Below, one piece after another: positions 21,716 to 43,953 of a stretch of 64,000 nt of DNA. The position numbers and the translations under genes are program-made. This DNA is from Streptacidiphilus sp. ASG 303 (lineage in GTDB: Bacteria > Actinomycetota > Actinomycetes > Streptomycetales > Streptomycetaceae). The stretch spans positions 1 to 64,000 of the forward strand of contig NZ_JAJLRA010000012.1 of the NCBI RefSeq assembly GCF_020991365.1. Reading direction: 5' to 3'. The notes beneath the pieces were generated by a model. That model saw only the letters and a program-made list of their open reading frames with translations. It was not told the DNA's origin and searched no databases. Numbering within the stretch: the first letter of the stretch is position 1; each line of letters starts with the position of its first letter.

Positions 21716-22387
21716 AGTGGTGTGACTCCGATACTGCGGATGTTCCGGGATGCTGCCGTGTCCGCGCGTGCGGACCTGGACGTCTGCCGACCTCCCGGCC
21801 TTCCGGGGCGGCCGTGGACGGGCCTGCGTGCGGCTCGTCCTGCGTCCGGCGGATCGCGGTGCGGACCCGCCCTGTGAGGCGGATGGCCGCCCCGGGGCCC
21901 TGCCGACCCCCGGCGGTCGCCGGGTTCCCGGAGGAGCGACCCCCTGGGAGGGTGCGGCGGTCTTCTCCGCCACGGTTGCGGCGGCTCTGCCGGGGTGGCG
22001 GACGGGCACGGTCCCGGGAGAGGGCCGTACGGGTGTTCCGGGGGATCGAGTGGCGGTTCCCGTGCCTGTCGGCGGCGCTGACGGCAGGTTCGGGGACTAA
22101 GAAAAACGTACACCATAAAATCGCACGCAAGTAAAATGGTCGATGTGATGTTCGCCCCCTGTCGCGGCCCCGGGTGGTCCGGGCTGCGGTGAGGAGCGGG
22201 CGGCTCCAAGGGTGCCGTGCCCTTGAGGGGCGGCGGGCGAAACCCCGCGTGCGCACGGTTGTTGCCCGATCGGGCTTGTCGGCAGGCCGTGAGGGCGAGG
22301 ACCGGCCTAGGATTTCAAGGGCGTCATTCATGCCATATGCACGCCAAAAATCCACATGGGATCAGACTTCGCCGATCGGAGAGTGCA
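21716..22387. promoter_or_regulatory. Long divergent regulatory region between P450 and 75-aa peptide genes
   Basis: 672 nt without a supportable gene. An unusually AT-rich block at about 22097-22140 (for example AAGAAAAACGTACACCAT and CAAGTAAAATGG) stands out against surroundings near 75% G+C and is a probable promoter or regulator-binding zone. Another AT-rich patch lies at about 22312-22360, just before the peptide gene. I cannot assign exact -35/-10 elements. Confidence 0.5.
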
Positions 22388-22615
22388 ATGAGTGGTTTCT
22401 GGATGGAGAGCCTCCTCGCCGAGAACCCGGAGGCGGGGTGGAACCTCGCTGTCAAGCTGTCCCGGATGGGCGTCAAGGCCACGCAGCCCTCGGACGAGGT
22501 CCGGGGCCGGCTGCGCGCGATCTACGCAGAGGACGCCGACAGCCTCATCGCCTCGTCCCATGTGGTGGCCGTCAACTTCCAGACGGTCGCCGCCGCCAAC
22601 AACTACTGGCGGTGA
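22388..22615 (+). CDS. 75-aa peptide, candidate RiPP precursor or small regulator
   Basis: 75 aa starting MSGFWMESLLAENPEAGW and ending TVAAANNYWR. ATG 22388 is preceded by CGGAGAG at ideal spacing, and a perfect 12-bp terminator (22621-22650) begins five bases after the stop, so it is a discrete expressed gene. The first two thirds are charged and helical (ENPEAGWNLAVKLSRMG; SDEVRGRLRAIYAEDA), leader-like. The last roughly 20 residues are hydrophobic then aromatic (HVVAVNFQTVAAANNYWR), with no Cys and little charge until the final Arg. That shape, together with a divergent P450 and a downstream cupin, fits a P450-modified peptide precursor; this is inference. I know no family by sequence. 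It could also be a small regulatory protein. Confidence 0.75.
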   Translation: MSGFWMESLLAENPEAGWNLAVKLSRMGVKATQPSDEVRGRLRAIYAEDADSLIASSHVVAVNFQTVAAANNYWR

Positions 22616-22620
22616 GTGGG

Positions 22621-22650
22621 GGCGGCCAGGCGTCATCCCGCCTGGCCGCC
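22621..22650 (+). terminator. Terminator or attenuator after the 75-aa peptide gene
   Basis: Perfect 12-bp arms GGCGGCCAGGCG (22621-22632) and CGCCTGGCCGCC (22639-22650) with loop TCATCC, five bases beyond the stop. It would separate abundant short peptide mRNA from the downstream cupin and DUF4331 genes. A TAATAT at 22805-22810 could be the -10 of a separate cupin promoter. Confidence 0.75.
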
Positions 22651-22911
22651 GCCCTGCGGCTCCGCTGCTTCTCGGTGCATCACCCGGGAGCGGGCCCCGC
22701 GGACCGCCGGACGGCTCGCCCGCGGCGCTCCCCGTCCCCTTCCGTGCTCTGCTCCGAGGGGATCGCTCGGAGGAGTCTCCCAGGACATCCGGTCGATGTG
22801 TGCCTAATATCCCCTTATGGCATTGCCTGCCCGAATGCCGTGGCCCGAGCCGTCGAAGCGAGATGCTCCGACCGGTCCCGCCCGTCGAGTTCGCCTGTCG
22901 GAGGAAGAGCA

Positions 22912-23319
22912 GTGGACACGTTCGACACCGTCGCCGAGAGCAGTGGAAACCCCGTTCCCGACCACCTGCGGAACCTCTTCAACCACCCGGACGACGTCCG
23001 TGTCCAGAAACTGCCGTGCGAGCTGCCCGAGAAGGGCTCCATGGTGGTGTTCTTCGGTGCGGGTGCGCGCACGGTGCCCCACACCCACCACAACGGCCAG
23101 CACCTGTTCATCGTCGACGGCGTGGGCGTGGTCGGTGACGAGAACGGGGTGCACGTGGTCCGTGCCGGCGACGTCGTCAGCAGTCCGCCCGGCGGATGGC
23201 ACTGGCACGGGGCGTCCCAGGAGCACGCGATGACGCACCTGACGGTCGAGCAGCCCGGCGACTTCGACCTGGACGTCGACCGCCGAGACTGGGACAGCAG
23301 TTACGGCCCCACGGCCTGA
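22912..23319 (+). CDS. Cupin-domain protein
   Basis: 135 aa, a single small beta-barrel. Metal-binding cupin motif 1 is seen as GARTVPHTHHNGQHLFIVDG (about residues 46-65, His cluster and later acidic residues). Motif 2 is RAGDVVSSPPGGWHWHG (about 83-99). Small cupins act as dioxygenases, isomerases or sensors; the substrate is unknown. GTG 22912 has GGAGGAAGA upstream. It lies 56 nt before the DUF4331 gene on the same strand and probably forms a unit with it; the 75-aa peptide gene is upstream beyond a terminator. Confidence 0.85.
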   Translation: MDTFDTVAESSGNPVPDHLRNLFNHPDDVRVQKLPCELPEKGSMVVFFGAGARTVPHTHHNGQHLFIVDGVGVVGDENGVHVVRAGDVVSSPPGGWHWHGASQEHAMTHLTVEQPGDFDLDVDRRDWDSSYGPTA

Positions 23320-23374
23320 TCGAGGTCCTCCGATCCGCCCTGCCACGAGAGTGCACAACCCAGGAGACGCCGCC

Positions 23375-24409
23375 ATGTCCCACCACCTCGACTCCCCCCT
23401 GGCCCGGTCCGATGTCCGCCTGGACATCACTGATTTCTACGTCTTCCGCGGCGAGACGGGGACGGTGTTCGCCATCAACGTCTCCCCCTCCATCGCGGGG
23501 GAGGACGCACCCCGGGGATTCCACCCCGAGGGCCGCTACGAGTTCCGCATCGACGGCAACAGCGACCTGGTTCCGGAGCTCACCTACCGCATCTCCTTCG
23601 GGGATGAGGACGGCTCGGGCGGCCAAGGCGTGGAACTGCGGCGCCTGCGAGGGGCCGACGCAGTGGACGCCGCGGCCGACGGCACGGTGCTGGCCACCGG
23701 GACGACGGGGACCATGATTCCCGGAGAAGGAGGACTGAGACTGTGGGCCGGCAGGGCCCACGACCCTTTCTTCCTCGACGGCGTCGTCCTGGGGGCCGTC
23801 GGCAACGCCTTCGCGCAGGGCACCGTCGTCGACCTGTCCGGATGGAGCCCGGCCACCGCCACGAACGCTCCCTTCGGCAGCAACGACGTCTACGCCCTCG
23901 TGCTGGAGGTGCCCGACCCGGACCTGCTCGAGGTGGCCTCCGACCGCCGTATCGGCACCTGGGCTCTCAGCATGCTGGCCACCGATGCCGGCGGGTGGCG
24001 CCCCATCAATCGTGTCGGCCTCCCCATGATTCCGCCGATCTTCGCGCAGCACGACGAACACCTCGGCGACCACCTGAACACTGCCGACCCTGCCGAGGAC
24101 CGCAGCCTGTTCGCGGACCGGATCGCCTCGGCGGTGGCCGCCGTGGTGAAGTCCTACGGGACCGCCGACGATCCCCGCGACTACGGCCGCACTGTGGCGG
24201 ACAGGATCTTTCCGAACGTCCTGCCGTACACCGTCGGCACCCCTGCCGTCTTCGGCTTCGGCGGGTGGAACGGCCGCTCCCTGACCGACAGCGCACCCGA
24301 CGTGATGTTCTCCCTGGCCACCAACACCGCCTTCACGACGGGAGTGACCAAGGACTCGGTTCCGGTCAAGCCCACCGCGACCTTCCCCTACGTCCCGGTG
24401 TTCTCCTGA
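23375..24409 (+). CDS. DUF4331 family protein
   Basis: 344 aa. It starts MSHHLDSPLARSDVRLDITD, the characteristic opening of DUF4331 proteins (SHHLDSP followed by D-hxD-hYxF). Later motifs include DDPFFLDG-like HDPFFLDGVV, TNAPFGSNDVYALVLEVP and DYGRTVADRIFPNVLPY. There is no signal peptide, although several family members are exported. Biochemical role unknown. ATG 23375 (GGAG nine bases upstream) is preferred over an in-frame GTG at 23351 because the family motif begins directly after it. It follows the cupin gene, and the pair may share function. A 13-bp hairpin at 24751-24789 lies far downstream. Confidence 0.88.
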   Translation: MSHHLDSPLARSDVRLDITDFYVFRGETGTVFAINVSPSIAGEDAPRGFHPEGRYEFRIDGNSDLVPELTYRISFGDEDGSGGQGVELRRLRGADAVDAAADGTVLATGTTGTMIPGEGGLRLWAGRAHDPFFLDGVVLGAVGNAFAQGTVVDLSGWSPATATNAPFGSNDVYALVLEVPDPDLLEVASDRRIGTWALSMLATDAGGWRPINRVGLPMIPPIFAQHDEHLGDHLNTADPAEDRSLFADRIASAVAAVVKSYGTADDPRDYGRTVADRIFPNVLPYTVGTPAVFGFGGWNGRSLTDSAPDVMFSLATNTAFTTGVTKDSVPVKPTATFPYVPVFS

Positions 24410-35427: not shown

Positions 35428-36024
35428 ATGGCGACGAAGATCCGCAAGACCAGGTCCGAGGAGAGGATCCTCGCGGCCGCGGCCGAGCTCTTCTACGCCC
35501 ACGGTCTGCGCGGCGTGGGGATCGACCAGGTCATCGAGGCGTCGGGCGTGGCGAAGTCCACGCTCTACGTGCACTTCCGCACCAAGGAGCAGCTCGTCGG
35601 GGAGTACCTGCGCAGGACCGACGACTCCTGGATGGCGCAGCTGTCGGACGCCGCCGAGCGGGCCGGGGACGACCCCCGCGACCGGCTCGTGGGCCTCTTC
35701 GACGCCCTGACCGGCGCCTTCGACCGCCACGGGTTCTTCGGGTGCCCGTTCGTGAGTGCCGCGGTGGAGGCCGAGACCGGCTCCGAGGCGCGGGCCGTGA
35801 CCGAGGAGCACACCCGGCGGCGGCAGGCCTGGCTGACCGAGCTGAGCGCCCGTGCCGGAGCGGCCGACGCCGCAGCCCTGGCCCAGCACATCGGACTCCT
35901 GATCGACGGGGCCCTTGCGTCGGGGCGTCTGCTGCAGGACCGGGCCGTCGTCGACCAGGCGAAGGCCGCGGCGGCGCTGCTGGTCCGCGCCCACACCGGC
36001 GACCGCGCCCCCAGCGGCGGCTGA
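35428..36024 (+). CDS. TetR-family repressor
   Basis: 198 aa. N-terminal TetR DNA-binding domain: [20 protein letters not shown] followed by [18 protein letters not shown]. The helical ligand-binding domain contains [19 protein letters not shown], a pattern seen in TetR_C_33-like regulators (from memory), with a Cys (FGCPF) that could sense electrophiles. ATG 35428 is preferred to GTG 35425 for spacing to GGGAGG. The near-perfect palindrome overlapping its start, plus copies before two quinone oxidoreductases, makes it the likely repressor of that regulon. Confidence 0.93.
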
Positions 36025-36096
36025 CGCCGCCCGCGCCGCCGGGCGGGCCCGTCGCCTTCTCCTGCGTCCTGACCCGGACCTCCTCCGTCGTGCCTC

Positions 36097-36128
36097 CCGG
36101 GGCGGGCTGCTGCAGCAGCCCGCCCCGG
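36097..36128 (+). terminator. Perfect 32-bp palindrome after tetR
   Basis: 16-base arms CCGGGGCGGGCTGCTG and its exact complement meet at 36112/36113, 72 nt past the TetR stop. It would form a long hairpin acting as terminator on either strand. The rest of 36025-36407 holds only the promoter of the next gene. Confidence 0.6.
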
Positions 36129-36371
36129 TCCGTCTCCCGGCGCCCCCTCGCCTGCCCGGCCCGACCGGGTCCGCCGTCCGCTGCGGAGCCCCGGCCGACG
36201 GTCCGGCCCGACCGTCTTCCCGCCGGTCCCGGACGTGTCCTCCGTGGCCGGGGGCGGTGCTCGGCGCCGCACCCTGCGGCCGGACCGCAGCCCGACCTGC
36301 CTGTCGCCCAGGGCTCCGGCCGGGAGGGCTCACCGGGCTGCGGCAGGCGGTGCGGCATGAGCGGAAATCCG

Positions 36372-36401
36372 TTCCGAGTGGTGCTGCGCCGCCCCTATGG
36401 T
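36372..36401 (+). promoter_or_regulatory. Probable promoter of a leaderless cpt transcript
   Basis: TTCCGA (36372-36377) and TATGGT (36396-36401) are separated by 18 nt. The -10 ends six bases before GTG 36408, which has no ribosome-binding site, so transcription would start at or next to the start codon. Confidence 0.55.
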
Positions 36402-36407
36402 GGCGCG

Positions 36408-36941
36408 GTGACGACTGACGTGATCGTTCTCAACGGCGGCTCCAGCTCGGGCAAGTCCGGGATCGCCCGGTGTCTGCAGGCGGTCCTGCCGGATCCGTGG
36501 CTGGCTCTCGGGGTCGACACGCTGGTTGAGGCGATGCCCGCGTCCATGCGGGCATCGGGTGCCGGGATCGAGTTCGCTCCGGACGGACAGGTGGCCGTCG
36601 GACCGGAGTTCCGGATGCTGGAGGCGGCATGGATCGAGGGGGTCGCCGCGATGGCCCGTGCGGGTGCCCGGATCATCGTCGACGAGGTGTTCCTCGGTGG
36701 AGCGGACTCGCAGGAGCGATGGCGGAAGGCTCTGGGCGACCTGCGGGTGCTGTGGGTCGGCGTCCGGTGTGACGGTGCGGTTGCCGCAGGCCGTGAGGTC
36801 GCACGGGGTGATCGGGTCATCGGAATGGCGGCGTCCCAGGCGGATGTGGTGCACCGGGGGATGGTCTACGACCTGGAGGTGGACACCGCGCATGCCGAGT
36901 CGATGGAGTGCGCACGGGCCATCGCCGCACATGCCGGCTGA
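36408..36941 (+). CDS. cpt: Chloramphenicol 3-O-phosphotransferase
   Basis: 177 aa, matching the 178-aa S. venezuelae enzyme in length and, from memory, in most of its sequence. P-loop [17 protein letters not shown] (Gly10-Ser17) binds ATP; Asp37 in [11 protein letters not shown] matches the catalytic Asp37. [31 protein letters not shown] and the C-terminal [19 protein letters not shown] are family signatures. It inactivates chloramphenicol by phosphorylating the primary 3-hydroxyl, giving cytosolic resistance. GTG 36408 fits the family start; an in-frame ATG at 36357 would add 17 unneeded residues. No chloramphenicol biosynthetic genes are in the window, so it is an orphan resistance gene. 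Confidence 0.93.
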
Positions 36942-39766: not shown

Positions 39767-41704
39767 TCACACCGGGTCCAGCGCGCCCGTCCGCGGCGGT
39801 TCCGCCGTCCGGCCGGCCAGGCGCGGATCGACGGGCTGGGGGATGTGCACGGGGACCTCCGGCTGGTAGAAGATGTCGATGTCGGCCTCCTCGCCCCCGA
39901 CGACGAGCGTGTCCCACGCGCCGCTCTCCTGCAGGGTCCGCAGGGTCGACGGGGCCAGGGCGGACAGGTGGTTGCGCAGTTCCCCGTCGTCCGGCATGCC
40001 GGGCAGGCGGGGGGCGAGGCGCTCACGGATCGCCCGCATGCGGTCCAACAGGACGTCCAGGTCGGACTGCCCGGTGCCGGGTCCGGACACCCGGTCCTCC
40101 TCCGTGCTCCGGGCGATGACGTCCTTGACGGCGCGGGTCACGCCCTGTTCGTCGGTGGTGACCATGGCGTTCCAGGCCCGGCTCTTGTGCCGGTACTGGA
40201 GCATGGACATCGCCGCCTCGTGGCGGATGAAGTCGGCGTCGCGCAGCGGACGGCCCCGCCAGGTGCGGCCGAGCGAGCGGGCCAGGGAGATCGCCGAGGC
40301 GAGACCGCTGTTGAGGCCGCGTCCGGGCCAGAAGTGGATGGCGTTGGCCGCGTCGCCCAGCAGGAAGCCGTACGTTCCGGGGCTGGTGGCGGTGGGGCGG
40401 GTGAGCTGCGCCGTGAACCGGGGGCGCTGCACCATGTCCAGCCGGAACGAGGTGACGGCGCTCAGGTCCTCCTCGGCGACGCCGAACAGCCTCAGACCGT
40501 CCTGGATCCGCTTCCACAGCGGCGAGCTGCGCAGCAGGGCGGGCAGGAAGAGGGTTCCGTGGGTCGGGCAGACGAACTCGTTGTCCTCCTGGCGGCTCAT
40601 CACGCAGGGCCGGGCGGCGATGCACTCCTCGAAGACGTGCCGGACGGGGTCGATGCCGATGACGTCGCGCGCCTCGTCGCGGGTCAGCCGCATGTTGAGG
40701 AAGCCCTCGCCGTTCAGCGAGTTGAGCAGGAAGCGGTTCTGCGCCACGGTGAGCAGGACGCTCATCGGATCCGGGAGCCGGGACTTCACCCGCAGTCCCA
40801 GCACGACGTCCTGCAGGTGCTCCCCGTCGAGGGAGTAGATCGAGGCGTCGGACGCGCCGAAGCGGTCGACGAAGTGCTCGCGGGTCCGCGACCGGCCGCC
40901 TTCGCAGATCGCCAGGACGTGCTCCCGGGACAGCCGGTGCCGGTGCTCCGCCGCATCGAAACGCTCCGGCACCAGGCGGATGGCGGGACTGGCGTTGGCC
41001 AGTTCCAGCAGCTTGTCCTCGATGTAGGCGATCCGGATGTTGCGGGGCGGCCGGCCGTCCACGGAGTCCGGCCCCACCGGCCACATCTCGGAGTACTCGC
41101 CCGCGTCGAACAGGGCCGCCCGCATGGCGTCGGTGAGGGCGAGGTACTGCCGGCTCTGGACGGTGACCACCTGCTGGCGGCGGACGTTGCCGTGGGTCTC
41201 GTCCTTCCAGACCACGGTCGGGCCGTTCCTGGTCCACCGGCCGTCGTGGACGGTGACGGCCACCCTTCCGGGCAGTGCGTCCTCCAGCAGCAGGGCGAAG
41301 GCGAGCCCGACCGGGCCTCCTCCGCTCACCGTGACCCGCAGCTCGTCCGGGTTCTCCGGGGCGTCGGCGCCGGGCAGGTCGAGCTGGGAGAGGGCCATGG
41401 CCGTCTCCATGGCCTCCTGCGTCTCGAACAGGAACGTCTCGTCGCCGATGCTGATGCGGTCGCCGGGCACGAGCACGTGGCGGGTGACGCGGCGGTCGTT
41501 GACCCGGGTCCCGTTCCGGCTGTCCCGGTCGTAGAGGACGGACGCGCCGTCCTCCGTGACGATCTCGGCGTGCAGGCGGGACGCGCTGGCGCTGACGAGG
41601 ACCACGTCGTTGTCGCTCTTGCGTCCGAAGCGGATCGGAGCGCCACCCACGACGAGGCTCTGACCGGCGAAGGGACCGGTGTGTCCCACGATGACCGACG
41701 ACAA
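39767..41704 (-). CDS. FHA domain fused to FAD-dependent monooxygenase
   Basis: 645 aa. Residues 1-95 form an FHA phosphothreonine-binding domain with all key residues: FGR (Arg28), SRLH (Ser42, His45) and RNGT (Asn64). After a short linker comes a flavoprotein: FAD-binding VTVSGGGPVGLAFALLLED (about 125-141), further motifs including RFDAAEHRHRLSREHVL, and the second FAD motif FLLGDAANAIHFWPGRGLNS with Asp451. The last 150 residues are helical. It resembles class A aromatic hydroxylases; the substrate is unknown. Start is TTG 41704, positioned by AAGGAG. It lies 212 nt downstream of the transmembrane Ser/Thr kinase (41917-43953) on the same strand, so phosphorylation-dependent recruitment or gating is likely. 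Confidence 0.92.
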   Translation of the reverse strand: MSSVIVGHTGPFAGQSLVVGGAPIRFGRKSDNDVVLVSASASRLHAEIVTEDGASVLYDRDSRNGTRVNDRRVTRHVLVPGDRISIGDETFLFETQEAMETAMALSQLDLPGADAPENPDELRVTVSGGGPVGLAFALLLEDALPGRVAVTVHDGRWTRNGPTVVWKDETHGNVRRQQVVTVQSRQYLALTDAMRAALFDAGEYSEMWPVGPDSVDGRPPRNIRIAYIEDKLLELANASPAIRLVPERFDAAEHRHRLSREHVLAICEGGRSRTREHFVDRFGASDASIYSLDGEHLQDVVLGLRVKSRLPDPMSVLLTVAQNRFLLNSLNGEGFLNMRLTRDEARDVIGIDPVRHVFEECIAARPCVMSRQEDNEFVCPTHGTLFLPALLRSSPLWKRIQDGLRLFGVAEEDLSAVTSFRLDMVQRPRFTAQLTRPTATSPGTYGFLLGDAANAIHFWPGRGLNSGLASAISLARSLGRTWRGRPLRDADFIRHEAAMSMLQYRHKSRAWNAMVTTDEQGVTRAVKDVIARSTEEDRVSGPGTGQSDLDVLLDRMRAIRERLAPRLPGMPDDGELRNHLSALAPSTLRTLQESGAWDTLVVGGEEADIDIFYQPEVPVHIPQPVDPRLAGRTAEPPRTGALDPV

Positions 41705-41916
41705 AGGAACTCCTTGCGAAAGTCCGGGTGTGCGGGGGAGGGGACCGCACGCTGAAGGTGAACCACTGAGGGGGACGGGCCCGCGTCGCCGCGGAGCGGC
41801 CCGTCATCGGCGCCCGCGGCGCCGGTCGGGGCCGGATCCGGCCGGAAGCAGCCCGCTCGGCGTACGACGGACACGCGGGGACGGCCCGGGCGGACGGGGC
41901 GACCCCGCCGAACCGT

Positions 41917-43953
41917 CTAGCCGCCCGCCGTCAGGCACGTGACCGAGAACGGCACCGGGTCGGACACGGCGTGGAACGGCGACCGGATCTCCACGGCCAT
42001 CGCGCTCCGGAGCGTTCCGGCCTGCGCGTACGTCGACAGCCGCACCGTCTCCCGATGGGTGCGGGGCCCGCCCTCCGGGAACGACAGCGTCCGCCACTGC
42101 CGGTCGACCACGGAGCCGTTCGCCGAGACCCACCGGTACGAGAACCGGACGGGCACCTCGGACACCGTGAACGTCGCCGTGAAGACGGGTCCCGCGGAGT
42201 CGGCCGGGGGGCACTCCCCGACGTACGCGGTCGCGTCACCCGTCACGGTGACGGCGACACGCTGCGCGGCGGTTCCGTCCTGCCCGCTTCCCACCGCACC
42301 GGCGGCAGCGCTCTGCGTCCGTCCCGCGGGCTGGTCGCCACCCGTCCGGTCCTCGCGGTCGCCCCCGACGAGGGCATGGCTCAGGCCGCCGGCGAGCAGC
42401 GCGGTGACGACCACCGCCGCGGAGACCAGGTAACCGGTCCGCCGGCTCCGCCGCGCGGAGCCGGAACCGGACGCCCCGGTGTCCGGGGGCTCGGACGCTG
42501 CGGCAGCGGTCGGCGGCGCGGCGACGGGCGCGGGCCCCGCCGGGTCCGCCCCCACGGCGGGCGACCCGGCGGCACGCGCGGCCGGTGCCGCCGTCGGCGC
42601 TCGGCGTGGCGCGGCGGAAGGCGGCGCGGCGGAAGGTGCCACGGCGGAAGGCGGCACGGCGGAGGAGGGAGGCGCACCGGGCACGACCGGGCTGTCCACG
42701 GTGGGTGCGGAAGCGGCGTCACCAGGCAGGCGGGGTGCCGGGACGGCGGTCCCGGCGGCGGCTGCCGCCTGCCCGTCGGCGGACGCCTGCTCCGCCGTGG
42801 CGGTGGGACCGCCGAGGGGGGCGTCGACCGTGGGTGTGCCGACCGTCGCCGTCGTCATCGTCGTCGCCGCCGTCCGTGCTGCGGAGGGGCCGGGGACGTC
42901 GGCGGTGGTCCTCCCGTCCCCCGGAGCGCCGTGCCCCTGCACCGTGGGGGCGTCGACCGTGGCCGCCGTGGTCCCGGCGTCCGTACCGCCCCCCGGGACC
43001 GGCGACGGCGCCGTGGCGTCCGGTGCGGCCCTCCCGGCCGGGAACTCGACGGTGGCCGTCCCGTCGGTGACCGCTGCGTGCGGCGCGGCCGGACCGGCCC
43101 CCTCACGTCCGGCGGCCGCGGCCAGGCGCAGCTCCCGCCCGGCCTGTCCGGCCGTCATCCGCTCGGCGGGATCCTTGCGCATCAGGCTCTCGATGACGGG
43201 CGCGAGGGGGCCGGCCCGGTCCGGCGGGGGCACGTCCTCGTCGACGACGGCGCGCAGGGTGGCCAGGGGGGTGGTCCTCCGGAAGGGCGAACGTCCCTGG
43301 ACGGCCGTGTAGAGCAGTGCGCCGAGGGACCACAGGTCCGATGCGGGACCGGGGGTCCGGCCCAGTGCCCGCTCCGGTGCCACGTACTCGGGGGAGCCGA
43401 CGAGCTCCCCGGCCATCGTCAGCCCGGGGTCGCCCTCGACGCTGGCGATGCCGAAGTCGGTGAGCACCACCCTGCCGTCGTCGGCGAGCAGGACGTTGGC
43501 CGGCTTCACGTCGCGGTGCAGCACCCCGGCGTCGTGGGCCGCGCCCAGCGCGGCCAGCACCTCGGCGCCCACGTGCGCGGCCTCCCGCGGCGGGAGTGCC
43601 CCCCGGGCGGCGAGCACATCGGCCAGCGACCGGCCGCGGACGAACTCCATGACGATCCACGGCCGGCCGTCGTGGGTGGCCACGTCGTGGACGGTCACCA
43701 CCCCCCGGGCGCTGATGCGCGCCGCCGCCCAGGCCTCCCGCTCCAGGCGGGCGTACATCTGCGCGACCCGGTCGGCTGCCAGCCCGGCGGGGGTGCGCAC
43801 CTCCTTGACGGCGACCTCGCGGTGCAGCACCTCGTCGCGGGCGCGCCATACGGTACCCATGCCGCCCGCACCGAGAACGGCCAGCAGACGGTAACGCCCT
43901 GCGACGAGCCGTTCGGCGCCCGCGTCCGCCGACGCCGTGTCATGGTCGTGCAT
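41917..43953 (-). CDS. Transmembrane Ser/Thr protein kinase, PknB-like
   Basis: 678 aa. Kinase domain about 20-275: GAGGMGTV (28-35), Lys50, HRDVKPAN (Asp148), DFG (Asp166), activation-loop Thr179 and SPEYVAPE. A 225-residue Ala/Pro/Thr linker (about 280-505) carries three PTVD/PTVQ motifs at 336-339, 374-377 and 417-420 plus further TVGT/TVEF-like sites, attractive as phosphothreonine docking sites. A membrane helix at about 507-530 (GYLVSAAVVVTALLAGGLSH) is followed by a roughly 145-aa external domain with beta strands (VPVRFSYRWVSANGSVVDRQ) and two Cys (GECPP; VTCLT), Ig-like. It precedes the FHA-monooxygenase gene and probably phosphorylates and/or docks that protein. Confidence 0.93.
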   Translation of the reverse strand: MHDHDTASADAGAERLVAGRYRLLAVLGAGGMGTVWRARDEVLHREVAVKEVRTPAGLAADRVAQMYARLEREAWAAARISARGVVTVHDVATHDGRPWIVMEFVRGRSLADVLAARGALPPREAAHVGAEVLAALGAAHDAGVLHRDVKPANVLLADDGRVVLTDFGIASVEGDPGLTMAGELVGSPEYVAPERALGRTPGPASDLWSLGALLYTAVQGRSPFRRTTPLATLRAVVDEDVPPPDRAGPLAPVIESLMRKDPAERMTAGQAGRELRLAAAAGREGAGPAAPHAAVTDGTATVEFPAGRAAPDATAPSPVPGGGTDAGTTAATVDAPTVQGHGAPGDGRTTADVPGPSAARTAATTMTTATVGTPTVDAPLGGPTATAEQASADGQAAAAAGTAVPAPRLPGDAASAPTVDSPVVPGAPPSSAVPPSAVAPSAAPPSAAPRRAPTAAPAARAAGSPAVGADPAGPAPVAAPPTAAAASEPPDTGASGSGSARRSRRTGYLVSAAVVVTALLAGGLSHALVGGDREDRTGGDQPAGRTQSAAAGAVGSGQDGTAAQRVAVTVTGDATAYVGECPPADSAGPVFTATFTVSEVPVRFSYRWVSANGSVVDRQWRTLSFPEGGPRTHRETVRLSTYAQAGTLRSAMAVEIRSPFHAVSDPVPFSVTCLTAGG

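Follow-up and report, generated by a model that had tools for sequence, protein, structure and literature searches.

Does a protein that joins a phosphothreonine-binding domain to a flavin monooxygenase answer to the transmembrane kinase encoded beside it? The question is raised by a locus in a 64,000-nt stretch of Streptacidiphilus sp. ASG 303 DNA (contig NZ_JAJLRA010000012.1, positions 1 to 64,000; hereafter the window, meaning the whole stretch analysed), where one gene fuses an FHA domain to a region resembling class A flavin monooxygenases and a Ser/Thr protein kinase gene lies next to it. By analogy with characterised kinase–FHA systems, we regard the two genes, with moderate confidence, as a signalling pair whose output would be a flavin monooxygenase. 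In many Streptomyces the two genes are inherited together, which suggests, at the level of sequence comparison, that protein phosphorylation may be wired directly to oxidation chemistry. The fusion gene and its parts map as follows:

39767..41704, minus strand: FHA–flavin monooxygenase fusion gene, 645 amino acids, TTG start, homologues found
41710..41715, minus strand: ribosome-binding site AAGGAG of the fusion gene; an A+G-rich site precedes most aligned homologue starts
41420..41701, minus strand: FHA domain, residues 2-95 (Pfam, AlphaFold2 model, structure match, invariant ligand residues)
41402..41404, minus strand: Thr101 in the FHA–monooxygenase linker, a candidate phosphosite by its conservation (E-T-A-M-A here; usually E-T-V-M-D)
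39875..41359, minus strand: class A-type flavin monooxygenase (PHBH-fold) region, residues 116-610 (AlphaFold2 model, structure matches, motifs)
41306..41323, minus strand: GxGxxG motif for flavin adenine dinucleotide (FAD), G128-G133 (invariant columns)
40352..40357, minus strand: GD FAD motif, G450-D451 (invariant, 48/48)

The FHA domain was matched by its Pfam profile over residues 24-87 (E = 5.4e-16; score 59.2 bits, cut-off 20.7). In an AlphaFold2 model of the fusion protein, with a mean predicted local distance difference test score (pLDDT) of 71 and a predicted template modelling score (pTM) of 0.60, it aligned with the GarA structure at Z 16.6, with a root-mean-square deviation (rmsd) of 1.2 over 93 residues and 34% identity. 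Residues G27 R28, S42 R43 H45 and N64 G65 T66 were invariant across all 48 aligned homologues, and GR, SxxH and NG are named as FHA ligand motifs in the available part of PMC1262709. We regard the domain as GarA-like and as a predicted phosphothreonine reader.

The monooxygenase half aligned with many class A flavin monooxygenase structures over ~300–340 residues (Z 16–18, 9–18% identity), the top matches being HspB (Z 17.8, rmsd 4.2, 326 aligned residues), PqsL, KMO, UbiI and PHBH. Its score against Pfam FAD_binding_3 (18.7 bits) fell under the cut-off of 22, and we therefore describe it as class A-type by fold rather than as a member of that Pfam family. At the place which we take to be that of the DG motif of class A monooxygenases, equated by eye, the family has E268 in 44 of 48 sequences and Asp in the other four, followed by the invariant G269. 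Compared with the known class A enzymes (HspB, PqsL, KMO, UbiH/UbiI and PHBH), the fusion shares the PHBH fold and the GxGxxG and GD motifs, but differs in its low identity and sub-threshold Pfam score, in its fused FHA domain, and in showing acid-Gly-Gly, mostly EGG, at the place usually taken by DG. Taken together, the model and motifs point to a PHBH-fold, class A-type flavoenzyme with intact FAD motifs, a predicted oxygenase. The original prediction of an FHA domain with all phosphothreonine-binding residues, joined to a flavin monooxygenase, is confirmed by the Pfam FHA match, the 48/48 invariance and the PHBH fold. No FHA-less relatives of the monooxygenase half were found in a search whose first pass scores 3–6 candidates per genome and which is not proof of absence: matches came from 4 of 396 genomes at phylum level (E <= 1e-12) and from 10 of 246 at class level (E <= 1e-3). 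Nine of these ten were full-length family members with an FHA domain, and the tenth was a weak local match.

Of 394 Streptomycetaceae genomes, 44 carry the fusion, with an identity that never falls under 64%. The match began at residue 2–5 in every genome save that of the window, where it began at residue 1; all 44 matches therefore take in the FHA stretch. A scan of genome contigs gave 68 fusion loci, and in a tree of 69 sequences (these loci and the window) 19 rows formed clade B (support 100), while 50, including the window, made up clade A; in the genome sample, clade A was called at >= 76% identity (21 genomes) and clade B at <= 70% (23 genomes). The fusion is a sharply bounded family of two clades. 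The two other sampled genomes of the window's genus had neither the fusion nor the kinase ectodomain described below. One row labelled Actinoallomurus (L069) groups with Streptomyces rows, through either transfer or mislabelling. Two clade A loci have broken 5' ends, reflecting decay or assembly error: L046 (8001-9704) has lost the entire FHA stretch, and L067 (7990-9725) starts inside the FHA domain and directly adjoins the kinase.

Of the 50 clade A rows, 48, the window among them, have the kinase next to the fusion: 30 are co-directional (including the window), 14 divergent, and four were recognised by the ectodomain alone at contig ends. In the window, the kinase gene lies upstream on the same strand with a gap of 212 bp, making co-transcription possible; in the co-directional rows the gap is 53–1350 bp, and no more than 301 bp in 28 of the 30, and in one of these rows (L043) an amidohydrolase gene stands between the two. 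In the genome sample, the ectodomain adjoined the fusion in 20 of 21 clade A genomes and in 0 of 23 clade B genomes. When neighbouring genes, predicted with a simple home-made gene caller, were clustered, the fusion was present at 69/69 loci, the kinase at 45, and the next cluster at 11. Across clade A, conservation of neighbours is limited to this pair, with small subsets of loci sharing flanks; no biosynthetic neighbour was conserved beside the pair across the loci clustered. Single loci lie near P450, Rieske oxygenase or methyltransferase genes, as read from sequence. In Microbispora (L049–L054, about 7.0–11.8 kb), the fusion is followed by two shared genes, one of them for an extracytoplasmic function (ECF)-type sigma factor (identified by Pfam on L051); this conserved context differs from that of the kinase.

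Pairwise distances of kinase and monooxygenase were correlated at r = 0.88 (43 of 44 rows, L067 being left out), a value reached in 0 of 2000 permutations, and at r = 0.83 in the co-directional rows alone. Two ectodomain copies were found in 17 genomes, all with a clade A fusion, and in 0 of the 373 genomes without one (Fisher 2e-26, not corrected for shared ancestry). The ectodomain as such occurs in 153 of 394 family genomes. The 44 kinases adjoining the fusion (module kinases) form one group (Shimodaira–Hasegawa-like approximate likelihood ratio test, SH-aLRT, 92, not starred) beside 20 core paralogues, and the divergent kinases form one group (100) inside it. These core paralogues (L075–L094) are widespread Streptomyces transmembrane kinases of ~540–560 amino acids with the same ectodomain, encoded away from the fusion. 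The module kinases look like one recruitment from this core kinase, and the simplest story would be one duplication and recruitment, one inversion and a few losses.

Seven Streptomyces plasmid records of 292 to 939 kb also carry the fusion, which suggests transfer of the pair; the three inspected are all linear, with the kinase adjoining the fusion in each. An eighth record is an 11.9-Mb Nonomuraea replicon, probably a chromosome. In the seven annotated plasmid records, the NCBI product name is only 'FHA domain-containing protein'. Carriage on plasmids, the patchy distribution (44/394 genomes) and the transposase genes close to the pair in two loci (L099 and L100) are what would be expected if plasmid or chromosome-end mobility simply moved the two genes jointly, their products having no physical interaction. 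We consider this very unlikely, as only the pair is conserved and the genes around it vary, as it survives inversion, and as a second kinase copy occurs only with the fusion. A role as a defence system was also considered and set aside: PADLOC matched the kinase alone, through generic kinase models, and returned nothing for the fusion.

The kinase gene of the window comprises the following parts:

41917..43953, minus strand: transmembrane Ser/Thr protein kinase gene, 678 amino acids (Pfam Pkinase)
43141..43893, minus strand: kinase domain, residues 21-271 (Pfam Pkinase)
42439..43071, minus strand: Thr-rich, presumably disordered cytoplasmic linker, approximate limits (sequence, composition)
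42370..42432, minus strand: putative transmembrane helix, approximate limits (hydrophobic stretch, hydropathy scan)
41920..42264, minus strand: presumed extracytoplasmic beta-sandwich with two invariant Cys, a putative sensor (model, alignment)

The kinase domain scored 148.3 bits against Pfam Pkinase (3.6e-43; cut-off 31.7) and has the HRD and DFG motifs. The C-terminal domain of 115 residues was modelled as a beta-sandwich (pLDDT 87) with two Cys invariant across 44 aligned sequences, and matched no PDB chain at E <= 0.001. No PASTA domain was found in the window's kinase by Pfam at E <= 0.01, and its score for NF033483, the PASTA kinase family, was 237 bits (cut-off 450). The upstream same-strand gene had been called a PknB-like transmembrane kinase, which is right for the kinase domain and not beyond it: the protein shares that domain and the single-helix layout with PknB-type PASTA kinases, but carries one small beta-sandwich ectodomain in place of PASTA repeats. 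Pkinase and FHA had 23 and 8 matches, respectively, in the window's own genome.

From the known behaviour of FHA domains and Ser/Thr kinases, we envisage that the kinase, with its putative sensor outside and its catalytic domain inside the cell, would autophosphorylate and phosphorylate threonines. The fusion would then dock, through its FHA domain, on a phosphothreonine, either in the Thr-rich cytoplasmic parts of the kinase or at Thr101 of a partner molecule, and docking could position the attached FAD monooxygenase or switch it on or off. If phosphorylation does control the enzyme, an outside signal would be coupled to redox chemistry compactly, through a single protein.

The linker between the two halves of the fusion (residues 98-116, pLDDT under 50) is variable except for Thr101, which was conserved in 48/48 aligned rows and in all 68 sequences holding the linker stretch (66 by pattern, L054, and L067, the last read from its DNA; L046 is without the stretch). 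Asp stands at +3 in 60 of the 68 (59 by pattern, and L067), a spacing preferred by some FHA domains. By this conservation Thr101 is a candidate phospho-switch. It lies only about six residues beyond the last FHA strand, and the ends of FHA domains lie opposite the ligand loops, so binding in trans looks likelier than binding in cis. An unlikely alternative takes this site as the whole mechanism, in the style of DgcB, Chk2 or TIFA: any cellular kinase would phosphorylate Thr101, the FHA domain of a second molecule would bind it, and the fusion would dimerise or oligomerise and its enzyme switch, with the adjoining kinase being one convenient writer. Such a switch would fit Thr101 being the sole invariant residue between 92 and 123, in a low-pLDDT linker, and its being kept also in clade B, without the module kinase. 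On the other hand, ~225 family columns are invariant and the invariance of Thr101 may thus be structural too; the window carries Ala instead of Asp at +3; and the motif is unlike the GarA/OdhI/DgcB pattern (Glu at -2, Ser at +1, hydrophobic residues at +2 and +3) given in the available part of PMC6733907.

Many short patterns were tried on the kinase linkers. PTV was enriched in the module kinases of co-directional rows (z 10.9), but its enrichment in core paralogues as well (z 6.0) shows that it is not module-specific. T[VIA]xD occurred in 17 of 30 co-directional linkers, where 1000 shuffles gave a mean of 8.8 and at most 17, and in none of 20 core linkers; we do not rely on it, given its absence from the window's linker and the number of patterns tried. 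ET[VIA] precedes the kinase domain in 11 of the 13 divergent kinases (z 8.1), which reflects shared descent within one clade; in two of the 13 the start call used cut the N-terminus.

Several results weigh against the two genes forming a signalling pair. Kinase–FHA adjacency is common in actinobacteria, which makes adjacency alone weak. The Thr fraction of module kinase linkers did not differ significantly from that of core paralogues (p 0.11, 0.09), T[VIA]xD is not found in the linker of the window's kinase, and the linker motif of the window's fusion is one of the eight of 68 without Asp at +3. The 13 divergent rows taken alone gave no significant distance correlation (r = 0.22, with 247 of 2000 permutations as high). 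Within clade A, one row (L024) has an intact full-length fusion without a kinase, the second such row being the FHA-less L046, and in the genome sample one clade A genome (G185) with a full-length fusion showed no kinase match in the fetched flank. In clade B, the module kinase adjoins the fusion at 0 of 19 loci and in 0 of 23 genomes, and 18 of the 19 loci had no kinase match above 60 bits in the flank examined. The kinase-to-fusion link of the original prediction is partly supported: the two genes are an evolutionarily linked unit in clade A, with 48/50 rows, 20/21 genomes, congruent distances and two orientations, and not in clade B. Clade B, where the module kinase adjoins the fusion in 0/23 genomes, supplies part of what the original prediction had named as refuting it, the architecture being found widely without any kinase neighbour; clade A (20/21) does not.

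Lacking the module kinase beside it, the clade B fusion is independent of a kinase neighbour, and other kinases must serve there; it would read phosphothreonine written by some other kinase. An ectodomain match was present elsewhere in 13 of the 23 clade B genomes and in none of the remaining 10. The genomes of L024, L057 and L047 gave no match to the ectodomain kinase elsewhere, in a comparison for which none of the three served as a positive control. At the Sphaerimonospora locus of clade B (L057, 5279-13426), three kinase genes of another type lie on the fusion's strand, one upstream and two downstream, perhaps a separate, independent association. Clades with and without a kinase of their own offer a natural comparison of how FHA partners arise.

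That the FHA domain is retained in clade B without the kinase, and that biosynthetic genes are not conserved beside the pair, would also fit an enzyme brought by its FHA domain to a kinase-marked third protein, which would itself be oxidised or carry a small substrate. This seems quite improbable, since there is no candidate for the third protein and the top structure matches are PHBH-fold enzymes, which act mostly on small aromatic molecules. Very doubtful is a phosphothreonine-directed oxidase, whose FHA domain would take the monooxygenase to phosphorylated proteins, phosphorylation thereby marking the protein or its bound cargo for oxidation; if true, it would amount to a two-step, kinase-then-oxygenase modification system on a mobile two-gene unit.

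Returning to a kinase–FHA pair with monooxygenase output, its parts have counterparts in several known systems. GarA and OdhI are close in that the GarA FHA domain is the closest by fold and among the closest by sequence, and in that they combine a Ser/Thr-kinase phosphothreonine switch with an E-T motif that is conserved and lies beyond the core of the FHA domain. They differ in being small proteins with no domain but FHA, whose enzyme partners are separate and whose ETTS precedes the FHA domain (PMC12321487, available part), whereas the present protein includes its enzyme and has its E-T motif after the FHA domain. The fusion begins at its FHA domain and has no N-terminal ETTS, and it scored 37.5 bits against the NCBIfam OdhI equivalog (cut-off 200). 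Bdellovibrio DgcB, an FHA-GGDEF diguanylate cyclase, likewise has FHA fused to an enzyme; according to the accessible text of PMC6733907, its FHA domain reads a phosphothreonine of its own chain as a proposed enzyme switch, but the output is cyclic-di-GMP synthesis, the Thr is in an N-terminal tail and the kinase is not identified in that text. Mycobacterium ulcerans PknQ–MupFHA resembles the pair as a plasmid-borne transmembrane kinase and FHA protein at one locus with a phosphorylation-dependent interaction, and differs in that the accessible text of PMC4238996 describes no flavoenzyme for MupFHA. Kinase–FHA pairs and FHA–enzyme fusions are thus already known; what appears new is a flavin monooxygenase as the output, a fusion that, judged by title or abstract, no paper described among the open-licence full texts searched.

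Elsewhere in the window, a second Ser/Thr kinase domain lies at 2065-2670, and a chloramphenicol phosphotransferase-like (CPT) domain at 36378-36941 (Pfam 3.4e-72), within a longer frame at 35742-36941. In 2-kb steps, G+C content was lowest at 22001-24000 (0.687 versus about 0.75 elsewhere).

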